33,188 bases of DNA from NCBI GenBank assembly GCA_003661365.1, contig QMVZ01000003.1, forward strand, positions 1 through 33,188, written 5' to 3'. The notes beneath the pieces were generated by a model. The model was not told the DNA's origin, did no database searches, and saw only the letters and a list, made by a program, of their open reading frames with translations. The position numbers were made by a program, and so were the translations under genes. Of the stretch, positions 354 through 22,497 are shown piece by piece. The stretch comes from Thermoproteota archaeon. GTDB lineage: Archaea; Korarchaeota; Korarchaeia; Korarchaeales; Korarchaeaceae. How positions within the stretch are numbered: position 1 is the stretch's first letter; each line of letters starts with the position of its first letter.

Positions 354-3300
354 ATGAGTCTTGTAAGCTCTCCTTCTATTCCAACGGACATCAAGAGTTT
401 AAAGGCCATTTACAAGAGATTCCTAGAGGAATACAAAGACAAATCCGGAGAAGCCAAGTACAGGCGTGCCATCGATGAGATGATAGCTAATGGACGGCGA
501 TCTCTTATAATTGATTACCACGACCTGTTTGGTTACCCCCTGACAAGAGAACTAGCAAGAGATTTGCATTTTAATCCTGAGAAGCACATAGAGGCCGCGT
601 CTCAAGCTATTAAGGAAATTGTACTGACGTTAGTTGGAGACCTCGATTCCCCAGAAGTTACTTTCGTGAAATATCCCTTTCACGCAAGATTTGATAATCT
701 TCCTGAGACCACTAGCATAAGGGAGCTGCACTCTCAAGTCCTTAATAGATTCGTTCAAATAAAGGGGATCGTAATAAGAGTTTCTGAGATATTTGCCAGG
801 ATTTCGAAAGCAGCTTATCGATGCAAAAGCTGCGATGAGATGATCTTGATCGACCTCATGAAAGGAGAGCAAGACATTCCAAAAGTATGTCCTAATTGTG
901 GAGGAAGGCTTCTCTTTGATGAAGGGAATAGCGAGTACATCAATTGGCAACATATAAGGATACAAGAACTCCCGGAAGACCTACCACCTGGAGCCATGCC
1001 TAAGCACATCGAGGCAGAGCTTTGGGACGATTTAGTGGACAAAGTAAAGCCAGGAGATCAGATAATTGCAACGGGGGTCATTAAACTCCAACCTGCTTCA
1101 GGTTCTAGAAGGATCTCCACGAGACCCGTGTTAATTTACAAGAGGTACTTGGACCTCAACAATATCAAGGTCCCGTCAAAGGTTTACGAGAAGGTGGATA
1201 TATCGCCCGAGGACGAGAAGATTATTCTGAACCTAGCAAAGGATCCGAACATTGAAGAAAAGCTACTAAACTCAATAGCGCCCGCAATTTACGGATGGAG
1301 ACATATAAAGAAAGCAATCGTCTTAGCACTTTTTGGAGGCAACCCCCTTGTCCTTCCAGATGGGACGAAAATAAGAGGCGAGTTACACCTTTTGTTGGTA
1401 GGGGACCCTGGAGTCGCTAAGTGTGTGTCTGGGGATACCCTTGTATTTGTTGATGGAGAATTTTGCAGGATTGCTGATTTGGCTGAAGAATTATTGAAAA
1501 AGGGAAACAAAAGATTAGAAGACGGATATGCTGCAGAGGGCAATTTTAAAGTCCTTTCTATGACAAAGGATATGAAGATAGAGGAGAAAAAATGCGCAGG
1601 AATCGCAAAGAGAAAGGCTCCAGGTACTTTACTCGAAATAAAGACCGAGAGGGGACTTTCTATAAAAGTTACCCCAACTCATCCGTTTTTGACGATAGAC
1701 AAGAATGGACGGCCCCAATATGTGAAAGCAGAAGATCTGTTAATGGGATCTTATGTGGCTACTCTAGGACTTTTTGAGACTAAGCACAACCGCGATCCTC
1801 CCAAATGTTCTTTGAAAGTTGACCACGAACTAATGGAGATTTTAGGCTTCCTTTTGGGAAAGGCACAGTTTAGAAAGAGAAAATCCACAGTCCTAGTTAC
1901 TGTTCAAGCAAATGAAAGGTGTATAAACAGATTTACAAAACTAGTTAAGGGCTGTTTAAAGGCTAGAGGAGTCCGTGTGTATGAAACTAGGGGGAAAAAT
2001 AAGAAAATTGGGTTCTATATTTCCAAAGGCGTGTATGAAGACATGCTTTCGTTAATTCCGTCATTACAAGACAAGAAGATAGCCAGAAAGCTGCCATCAT
2101 GGCTAATCTATTCTCATAAAGATCTTGTACTGCCTTTTATCAAAGGATATGTTGCTTCTTCAGCCAATTTTTCCGAAAAACTCAAGAAATTATGGTTTTA
2201 CACGTATAATCAGGGGTTAACGCATCAGGTTAGGCTTATTCTCTTGAAGTTAGGAATAGCTCCAGATGTTGAGGTAAATAGGACGTGTAAGATAATTCTA
2301 AAGGGAGGTCCTCTTAAGCAATTTATAGGTTTAGTAGAAGAAGACTTTCCATTTTTCAATGGTTATGATTCAAAGATTGCAGGACCTAACAGCAAGCAAG
2401 CGAGACAAAGCCTTGGAGTTCCTCGCATAGGAAAGCTTGTAAAGAAGATTCGTGAAGAAATGAAAATTCCTAGGTCAACCCTTGCATCTCTCACAGGAAT
2501 CAAGCCTTATTTGCTTAGAAGATATGAACTTGGCATTTCAAGGGTTCCAAAAGAGCATCTAAGCAAGATCTCTAAGGCACTCAGGAAGGAGTTAAAGAGG
2601 AGATCCTCCACTTTCAGAAAGGCCGAAGTTGCCTCCATAAGAAAAGATCTCGGCCTTTTAGACTTCATTTCTGAGTCTACGGTGGATTGGGAAAGGGTAG
2701 TTGAGATAAAGAAGATAAGGAGGCATGAAGGCTGGGTATATGATATAGAGGTCCCTGGAACGAGAAACTTTGTAGCAAACGGATTTATTGTCCACAACAG
2801 CCAGTTCTTGAAGTATGCCGCAGAAGTTTCCCCAAGGGGATTATATACGACTGGAAAAGGCTCCACTGCTGCTGGTTTGACTGCTGCTGTGATTAGAGAA
2901 CCTGCAACAGGGGGTTGGACGCTGGAGGCAGGGGCTCTCGTGATTGCAGATGGTGGAATCGCTTGCATAGACGAGTTCGATAAGATGAACGAAGATGATA
3001 GAAGAGCTATTCATGAAGCGATGGAACAGCAGTCATATCATCCCTCAACTGAAATACAGTTCGCAGATGGAACCAAAAAACGGATTGGACAGTTTGTAGA
3101 TGAACTCATGGAAAAGCATCCAGAAAAAGTCATTGACGGCATAAACTGTCAGATTTTGCCTCTAGATCAAGAAATTGAAGTTTTCACAGTTGATCTTAGG
3201 ACATTTGAGATAAAGAGATCGAGAATTGATAGGGTAAGTAGGCACTTGGCTCCTTCATATTTTGTTAAGCTGAAGTTTTCGAATGGTAGAGAGGTAATTG

Positions 3301-4421
3301 TAACGCCAGAACATCCTGTTTTTGTTTATGATGAGGGTACTTTGATAACCAAGCCGGCTATCGAAGTTGAAAGCGGTGAGTCAACATTAGGCGTTCAAAG
3401 GCTTCCTGAGTTTTGTACATTATTCTCTAGAGATTGTAATAAGATTGAGGAACTTGTTATGAAGGATGGTGGCTTCAATCTGCTAACCATAGAAAGCGTA
3501 GAGGTCGTGCCAAACAAAGGAGATCTTTCGACGAAATGGGTCTACGATGTCACAGTAGAACCGACTCATAACTTTGTTTCACATGGTGTTGTTCTACATA
3601 ACACGGTATCTATAGCAAAAGCTGGAATAGTTGCGACGCTAAACGCGAGGACAACAATTATAGCTGCCGCAAATCCGAAAAGAGGTCGCTATGACGCAGA
3701 TTTATCTGTTGCAGAGAACATCAACTTGCCTCCAACGATCTTATCGCGTTTCGATTTGATTTTCGTAATTAGAGACATTCCTGATGTAACTCTGGACGAG
3801 AAAATAGCAGACCACATCCTCGCCCTTAGAGCTGGAACAGGAAAAGAAGCTCAGCCCCCAATTCCCCCAGATCTTCTAGAAAAGTACATTGCTTATGCAA
3901 GGAAGAGAATCAGACCGGTAATGTCTGAAAAAGCTGCGGAGTTAATCAAACAGTTTTACCTTGAAATGAGAAAGATGAGCATGAAGAAGGAGCAAGAGAT
4001 GGCTTTTGAATCTGTTGCAATCACTCCGAGACAATTAGAAGCCTTGATCAGGCTTAGCGAAGCCAGAGCAAAGATGTTTTTGAGGAGAGAAGTTACCGAG
4101 GAAGACGCAAAGGAAGCCATCGAACTCATGAAGATAATGCTGAGCACAGTTGGATACGATGTTGTCAGCGGTAGATACGACATATATGGTGTTATGGCTG
4201 GTAAGTACATATCTGAAGCAGAAAGACGTGCTAAAGAGATTGAGTTCTTAAGGGAAATGGAAGAAGATAGGAAAGGCCCTGTTCCGAAGGTAGAGTTCAT
4301 TCAGGAGATATCTAGGTTGCTAGGTATAAAGGAGGAAATCATTGAGAAGGATCTCAGAGTTCTTAGGGAAGAAGGTCATATATATGAACCTAGACCCGGA
4401 TACCTTTCCTTAGTAAGGTGA
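354..4421 (+). CDS. mcm: Replicative minichromosome maintenance helicase MCM with two in-frame inteins (about 706 aa of extein)
   Basis: Zn-binding CKSC...CPNCGG; split Walker A GDPGVAK|SQFLKY; Walker B CIDEFDKM; AIHEAMEQQ|TVSIAKAGIVATLNARTTIIAAANPKRGRYD; arginine finger LSRFDLIF. Confidence 0.97.
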   Translation: MSLVSSPSIPTDIKSLKAIYKRFLEEYKDKSGEAKYRRAIDEMIANGRRSLIIDYHDLFGYPLTRELARDLHFNPEKHIEAASQAIKEIVLTLVGDLDSPEVTFVKYPFHARFDNLPETTSIRELHSQVLNRFVQIKGIVIRVSEIFARISKAAYRCKSCDEMILIDLMKGEQDIPKVCPNCGGRLLFDEGNSEYINWQHIRIQELPEDLPPGAMPKHIEAELWDDLVDKVKPGDQIIATGVIKLQPASGSRRISTRPVLIYKRYLDLNNIKVPSKVYEKVDISPEDEKIILNLAKDPNIEEKLLNSIAPAIYGWRHIKKAIVLALFGGNPLVLPDGTKIRGELHLLLVGDPGVAKCVSGDTLVFVDGEFCRIADLAEELLKKGNKRLEDGYAAEGNFKVLSMTKDMKIEEKKCAGIAKRKAPGTLLEIKTERGLSIKVTPTHPFLTIDKNGRPQYVKAEDLLMGSYVATLGLFETKHNRDPPKCSLKVDHELMEILGFLLGKAQFRKRKSTVLVTVQANERCINRFTKLVKGCLKARGVRVYETRGKNKKIGFYISKGVYEDMLSLIPSLQDKKIARKLPSWLIYSHKDLVLPFIKGYVASSANFSEKLKKLWFYTYNQGLTHQVRLILLKLGIAPDVEVNRTCKIILKGGPLKQFIGLVEEDFPFFNGYDSKIAGPNSKQARQSLGVPRIGKLVKKIREEMKIPRSTLASLTGIKPYLLRRYELGISRVPKEHLSKISKALRKELKRRSSTFRKAEVASIRKDLGLLDFISESTVDWERVVEIKKIRRHEGWVYDIEVPGTRNFVANGFIVHNSQFLKYAAEVSPRGLYTTGKGSTAAGLTAAVIREPATGGWTLEAGALVIADGGIACIDEFDKMNEDDRRAIHEAMEQQSYHPSTEIQFADGTKKRIGQFVDELMEKHPEKVIDGINCQILPLDQEIEVFTVDLRTFEIKRSRIDRVSRHLAPSYFVKLKFSNGREVIVTPEHPVFVYDEGTLITKPAIEVESGESTLGVQRLPEFCTLFSRDCNKIEELVMKDGGFNLLTIESVEVVPNKGDLSTKWVYDVTVEPTHNFVSHGVVLHNTVSIAKAGIVATLNARTTIIAAANPKRGRYDADLSVAENINLPPTILSRFDLIFVIRDIPDVTLDEKIADHILALRAGTGKEAQPPIPPDLLEKYIAYARKRIRPVMSEKAAELIKQFYLEMRKMSMKKEQEMAFESVAITPRQLEALIRLSEARAKMFLRREVTEEDAKEAIELMKIMLSTVGYDVVSGRYDIYGVMAGKYISEAERRAKEIEFLREMEEDRKGPVPKVEFIQEISRLLGIKEEIIEKDLRVLREEGHIYEPRPGYLSLVR
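1422..2798 (+). mobile_element. Intein 1 in MCM (459 aa, Cys1...HN/Ser+1), inserted in the Walker A motif, with a degenerate LAGLIDADG-like region and an XRE-like HTH
   Basis: Starts CVSGDTLVFVDGE (block A), TPTHPFLTI (block B), ends VYDIEVPGTRNFVANGFIVHN followed by S. Removing it restores GDPGVAKSQFLKYAAEVSPRG. Confidence 0.95.
3033..3602 (+). mobile_element. Intein 2 in MCM (190 aa mini-intein, Ser1...HN/Thr+1), no endonuclease domain
   Basis: Starts SYHPSTEIQFADGT, block B TPEHPVFVY, ends WVYDVTVEPTHNFVSHGVVLHN followed by T. Removing it restores AIHEAMEQQTVSIAKAGIVATLNA. Confidence 0.94.
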
Positions 4422-21114: not shown

Positions 21115-22497
21115 CTATAGTCCCCAGAGCTTCTTAAAATCATTTATCGAGGGTTTTTCCCCAAGTACCCTGATTATCTGGCGACTTTTCAGCGTTAAGT
21201 CAGGGCAGGGTCTGACGAAGCTTCCATTCTTCTCGTAGATCGATATTATCTTAACTAAATCCCCTTCAGCTTCTTTTACCGTGCGACCTGAAAGTTCTTT
21301 GTTCACTATGAAGGAAGTATAAACTGGAGCTCCTGAATCGAATTTTGGAGGAGTAAAGGCGATTTTCTCCTCTTCTAACCAATTGAGTAGAACCTCTGAT
21401 ATCTTAATAGATGCAGTTCCATCTCCAAACGGATTTGGAGCGCTCTTAACTCTCTCTACTAAAGCACTGTTATACAGGAAGTCGCTTACACACCTCTCTA
21501 TTTTAAGGGGATCGACTCCAGCCATAACGCCTATTCCCTCATCGATGATCTCGGGTCTTTCCGTGCTGTCCCTCAACACTACACATGGGACCTTCAGGGT
21601 AGCTGCTTCCTCTTGAACCCCTCCAGAATCTGTTGCCACAACAGTTGAATTGTCTAGAAGCTTCAAGAAATCGAGATATGATAGTGGATCTGTTATCTTT
21701 ATGTGCTTTGCTGTATATAGGCTTTTCAGAAGCCCGATCTTCTCCATGTTTTCCTTCGTTCTGGGGTGGAGGGGCCAGATTATTTGAACCTCTTTTAATT
21801 CTATGAGTGCGTTTACAATTGATTCAAGCCTTTCGGGATTGTCAGCGTTTTCCCTCCTATGCACGGTTACCGTCATTAAGAACTTTGAGGGATCTACCTT
21901 CAATTTTTTCAGGATGTTCGACTCAGCCCTGGCCTTTGGCAACATCTTTAGCAGGGCGTCAACGACCGTGTTACCTGTTACAAAAGTTCTCTCTGGAGAG
22001 CAGCCTTCGTTGAGTAGATTTGATGCTGCTCTCTCAGTAGGTGCAAAATTTAGGCTTGCCACGTGATCTGCTACCTTCCTGTTGATCTCCTCAGGCATAG
22101 TTGGGTCAAAGCTCCTAAGACCAGATTCTACGTGCACGAAGGGTATGTCCATCTTAGAAGCCATGATGGCAGTAGCCAAAGTCGAGTTTGTGTCTCCTAC
22201 GGCCAAGATTGCGTCTGGAAGGTAAGTTCCCACGACTTCCTCGGTTTTTTCAATTATCTTGTAGATTTGATATGGTTGAGAGCCAGAACCTACTCCTAGA
22301 TGATATAAAGGGGTAGGCAATCCCAATTCCTCAATAAAAATCCCGCTCATATTCCAATCGTAGTGCTGTCCGGTGTGCACCAGATCCACTTGGACGCCAG
22401 AACTCTTCCTAAGGGTATGAAAAAGGGGAGCAGCCTTTATAATCTCAGGTCTGGTGCCAACAAAAAAGAGTAGCCTCGGTAGCATTTCCCGCTCCAC
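21115..22497 (-). CDS. wecB: UDP-N-acetylglucosamine 2-epimerase (non-hydrolysing, WecB family) with C-terminal TrkA_C/RCK_C-like extension
   Basis: FVGTRPEIIKAAPL, HTGQHYDWNMSGIF, GDTNSTLA, HVESGLRS, MPEEINRKVADH, VHRRENADNPERL, TDSGGVQEEA. About 80 extra C-terminal residues. Confidence 0.93.
   Translation of the reverse strand: MEREMLPRLLFFVGTRPEIIKAAPLFHTLRKSSGVQVDLVHTGQHYDWNMSGIFIEELGLPTPLYHLGVGSGSQPYQIYKIIEKTEEVVGTYLPDAILAVGDTNSTLATAIMASKMDIPFVHVESGLRSFDPTMPEEINRKVADHVASLNFAPTERAASNLLNEGCSPERTFVTGNTVVDALLKMLPKARAESNILKKLKVDPSKFLMTVTVHRRENADNPERLESIVNALIELKEVQIIWPLHPRTKENMEKIGLLKSLYTAKHIKITDPLSYLDFLKLLDNSTVVATDSGGVQEEAATLKVPCVVLRDSTERPEIIDEGIGVMAGVDPLKIERCVSDFLYNSALVERVKSAPNPFGDGTASIKISEVLLNWLEEEKIAFTPPKFDSGAPVYTSFIVNKELSGRTVKEAEGDLVKIISIYEKNGSFVRPCPDLTLKSRQIIRVLGEKPSINDFKKLWGL

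Follow-up and report, generated by a model that had tools for sequence, protein, structure and literature searches.

The window (the whole stretch of DNA analysed, 33,188 nucleotides) encodes a WecB-family UDP-GlcNAc 2-epimerase which, as modelling of its structure shows, ends in an RCK_C fold. This combination is an old and widespread architecture in archaea. It is a real and old variant of a known enzyme, apparently undescribed, and we found no published description of a WecB-RCK_C fusion in the open-licence literature. WecB is the non-hydrolysing UDP-GlcNAc 2-epimerase and works as a dimer, and RCK_C is familiar above all as the half of potassium-transport regulators that binds the ligand. 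Why should the two be joined? The features of the gene are the following.

21115..22497, reverse strand: WecB-RCK_C coding sequence, 460 aa, GTG start, stop codon at 21115-21117
21382..22470, reverse strand: epimerase core, residues 10-372, GT-B fold, TIGR00236 wecB
21325..21372, reverse strand: linker, residues 376-391, with a PxFxxGxPxY motif conserved in the source phylum
21124..21324, reverse strand: RCK_C/TrkA_C domain, residues 392-458, with the PF02080 match at 399-457 (21127-21303)

Epimerase core and C-terminal domain

The peptide quoted in the original prediction is present letter for letter in the reverse-strand reading frame 21115-22497. Over residues 10-372 its product matches the NCBIfam equivalog TIGR00236 with 363.3 bits against a cut-off of 210.15, which places it in WecB; Epimerase_2 of Pfam matches at 28-370 with 353 bits, and the core ends near residue 373. 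Nine residues, Q44, H45, D102, E124, E136, E137, H213, R214 and H244, are invariant among 31 sequences, and we take them to be the catalytic Asp, two Glu and His and the allosteric Gln-His motif, as in the bacterial enzymes. Judged by its sequence, the protein is a WecB-family enzyme with an ordinary catalytic core, and epimerase activity on UDP-GlcNAc is predicted.

What is the tail that follows the core? The TrkA_C family PF02080 gives 26.5 bits for the whole protein, just below the cut-off of 27 bits, and exceeds it with 30-30.9 bits for the tail alone and 29.4 bits in the genome scan. Such a borderline score is weak by itself, therefore the fold was tested independently. TrkA_C is matched singly by 20 of 26 homologous tails, more than any other Pfam family. 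A profile of these 26 tails searched against PDB sequences found the RCK_C domains of CpaA and KtrA first, weakly (E 0.07-0.09), and the lone window tail gave chance matches only in PDB sequences. The AlphaFold model of the whole protein has a mean pLDDT of 92.4 and a pTM of 0.89; for the tail alone the pLDDT is 89.8, mostly above 93 in the domain itself, and the linker at about 370-390 is modelled less surely (71-77). The tail is modelled as a strand-helix-strand...strand-helix domain at residues 392-457. In Foldseek, RCK proteins make up 50 of its 50 top PDB matches (probability 1.00, best E 4e-4), among them the TrkA ring, KhtT, MthK, KtrA, CpaA and BusR. Conserved positions in the tail are mostly structural, lying in hydrophobic strands and turns, and form no obvious polar pocket. 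The TrkA_C/RCK_C-like module originally proposed for this WecB is thus confirmed by the tail-alone PF02080 score, the AlphaFold model and the Foldseek matches. Nor is the tail simply the normal WecB C-terminus of all homologues, as WecB of bacteria and of the M. jannaschii type ends 0-17 aa past the core.

Distribution and history of the tail

Is the tail peculiar to one lineage? The genomes were surveyed with a profile (A3) covering the tail together with the final stretch of the core; only in-frame tails were counted, and matches reaching the tail by reading through stops were removed by hand. With this profile WecB was found in 28 of the 29 genomes of the source phylum and the tail was seen in 23; a contig end truncates one further WecB, the tail is shortened in two gene copies, and in f4 and f5, the phylum's outermost families, no such tail was detected. 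An in-frame RCK_C-type tail follows WecB in 64 of 394 archaeal genomes, belonging to 16 family codes. Restriction to one lineage was rejected by this archaeal survey. The survey of WecB homologues suggested by the original prediction reveals an old archaeal architecture, not one confined to the window protein. In a bacterial sample centred on one Bacteroidota genome, 160 of 293 genomes had a match, and none among the matches listed carries an in-frame RCK_C tail.

The form of the tail varies. Its last RCK_C helix is missing in one group, and at loci L070 (G005:C28) and L075 (G008:C75) WecB has shortened tails in which the RCK_C pattern is kept in part only. At loci L035, L124, L125 and L126 an untailed WecB stops just past a linker that resembles the one in tailed relatives.

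A quick tree was built from 79 cores with the tail columns left out. Presence of the tail on this tree takes 5 changes, compared with 23.7 in shuffles, a contrast raised by near-copies. The Thermococcales-like genes (f10) and one f60 gene end right past a linker that resembles the one found in relatives with a tail (GELKVRSSRF, GALLIKSPDF). Since these untailed genes end after a tail-type linker, their sequences suggest that the RCK_C domain was lost in both cases. Two genomes of the window's family, G002 (L146, G002:C28) and G012 (L145, G012:C111), carry an additional WecB without a tail; in the tree it clusters with bacterial sequences, and it was perhaps acquired by transfer.

Did the tail arise once? 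The tails are too short for a tree of their own, and profile comparisons took its place. Tails of three separate groups match one another with E of 1e-7 to 4e-12; because they also match the TrkA_C domains of potassium transporters, a single origin is likely rather than proven. Over 13 close pairs, the dN/dS of the tail is 0.03-0.35 where measurable and that of the core 0.05-0.22, the value for the tail usually being one to three times that for the core. The tail is under purifying selection, constrained more loosely than the core. Together, the tree, the losses with linker remnants and the purifying selection point to an old, functional module.

Gene neighbourhood and possible roles

The window gene is flanked by a thermosome gene on one side and a divergent V-ATPase gene on the other, a context that says little; the neighbours of WecB in relatives are an HxlA-like gene or those for thermosome and V-ATPase. 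Around 20 tailed genes, with selected neighbours named, no conserved neighbour of the potassium-transport operon kind was found. At four loci of one archaeal group (L091, L092, L095 and L096), WecB is directly followed by a gene for a same-cluster nucleotide-sugar dehydrogenase resembling UDP-ManNAc dehydrogenase. For the L092 dehydrogenase the subfamily model gives 443 bits and that of archaeal UDP-ManNAc dehydrogenase 360, the latter below its cut-off of 750. Two such dehydrogenases are encoded elsewhere in the window's genome. Because of these two and of the four loci, a route from UDP-GlcNAc via UDP-ManNAc to UDP-ManNAcA is likely on gene content. Elsewhere in the window, positions 354-4421 of the forward strand encode a 1355-aa MCM helicase in which the N- and C-terminal intein models match twice each, marking two intein splicing regions, and the first of these contains an HTH_3 match.

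What might the domain do for the enzyme? The reading we prefer, to which we give close to an even chance, is that a pair of RCK_C domains couples the WecB dimer and adjusts epimerase activity or assembly on binding of a small ligand. In this old archaeal subclass a conserved linker joins the C-terminal RCK_C to the epimerase; two tails would most likely pair within WecB dimers (or between them), the paired tails would couple the subunits, and the ligand would act on activity or assembly from the RCK_C dimer interface. Pairing is the simplest reading since WecB is a dimer and RCK_C domains function as pairs. RCK_C forms dimers even when no ligand is bound, and in BusR a ligand between the subunits drives the attached domain (PMC8517857). 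In the source phylum the ligand would probably not be c-di-AMP; some other nucleotide or a nucleotide-sugar product is the likelier candidate. Retention of the tail across 16 archaeal family codes under purifying selection argues for such a role, as does the UDP-ManNAc-dehydrogenase-like gene placed directly after WecB in four loci. Against it stand the mainly structural nature of the conserved positions, the helix-less tails of one group, the two shortened copies in the source phylum, and the Thermococcales-like genomes (f10), which do without the domain. A wider scenario, in which RCK_C senses a ligand other than c-di-AMP in an unrecognised signalling or feedback circuit that governs ManNAc-type surface-sugar supply in several archaeal phyla, is speculative and rather doubtful.

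It is also quite possible, if short of probable, that the domain is purely structural, the tails pairing to stabilise the dimer or to build tetramers with no regulatory ligand. The predominance of structural positions among the conserved ones is what such a role predicts, and the varying length of the tail, its capacity to be lost and the absence of a KtrA-type ligand pocket agree with it. A pure heat-stability role fits poorly with the apparent loss of the domain in Thermococcales-like genomes, which weakens the structural explanation a little.

A regulatory or oligomerisation module, as originally predicted, is still the best class of explanation, but the cyclic-dinucleotide version of that prediction has been weakened. 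The RCK_C domains of several bacterial proteins bind c-di-AMP (PMC7288161, PMC8517857), and a tail acting likewise would be a receptor tying ManNAc supply to the osmotic or potassium state, as with KtrA, CpaA, KhtT and BusR. The fold is the same as that of c-di-AMP-binding RCK_C, 13 tailed genomes outside the source phylum encode DAC, and Pro191 of KtrA is matched in the window protein. However, the DAC domain (PF02457) was found in none of 29 source-phylum genomes, namely the window's own (78% complete) and 28 relatives, many of them more than 95% complete; published work reports no DAC in crenarchaea (PMC6741144). Among 394 archaea, DAC occurs in 13 of 64 tailed versus 91 of 330 untailed genomes, which gives no association (Fisher p = 0.28; 0.59 outside the source phylum) in a test that is rough because the genomes are related. 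The KtrA pocket comprises I163, I164, D167, I168, R169, A170, N175, I176 and P191, of which R169 and the isoleucines show good conservation (PMC7288161). Arg169 and Asn175 are kept in 0 of 26 tails, in a helix alignment with a two-residue gap, and in the window tail only I176 and P191 are retained, V standing in the place of I163; this mismatch excludes the KtrA type only, because BusR uses other residues. On these three grounds c-di-AMP was rejected as a general ligand, and a c-di-AMP receptor is improbable, though a minority of tailed archaea could use it.

It is also improbable that the tail serves to dock WecB onto another protein, for instance the nucleotide-sugar dehydrogenase encoded next to it or a transporter in the membrane: the dehydrogenase gene adjoins WecB in four loci, but the window's genome and its relatives have thermosome, V-ATPase or HxlA-like genes there and no such neighbour. 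That the tail is an artefact of assembly or a functionless remnant in decay, as the near-cut-off Pfam score and a few shortened tails might suggest, is already refuted by the same fusion in 64 independent genomes, and the confident fold and the tail dN/dS make it almost inconceivable.

Comparison with known systems

An RCK_C domain on a surface-sugar enzyme in 16 archaeal family codes, genomes without diadenylate cyclase among them, suggests new ligands or roles for RCK_C. As a soluble and easily assayed protein, WecB-RCK_C is a good experimental target for finding them. In pseudomurein-bearing methanogens WecB is without functional characterisation (PMC12820599).

The best Foldseek match of the whole window model is the M. 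jannaschii UDP-GlcNAc 2-epimerase (PDB 4NEQ/4NES), with 44% identity and a TM of 0.94 on the target. Core residues of known WecB/MnaA members are kept in the window protein, but the solved structures match it only to residue ~376 and none has an RCK_C tail; because no solved WecB relative matches further, the tail is regarded as an addition to WecB. With the RCK_C/TrkA_C proteins KtrA, CpaA, KhtT, BusR, MthK and TrkA the tail has fold and profile in common, whereas here the domain is joined to a cytosolic nucleotide-sugar enzyme, and the protein has no RCK_N. BusR, a GntR-type regulator in which an RCK_C dimer sits on a non-transport output domain, has a similar arrangement; it differs in that its output is DNA binding and its ligand c-di-AMP (PMC8517857). 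Haloarchaeal Lrp/AsnC regulators, which carry a TrkA_C whose ligand is unknown (PMC8229911), are a precedent; they are, like the window WecB, soluble archaeal proteins with this domain at the C-terminus; they are transcription factors, while the window protein is an enzyme.
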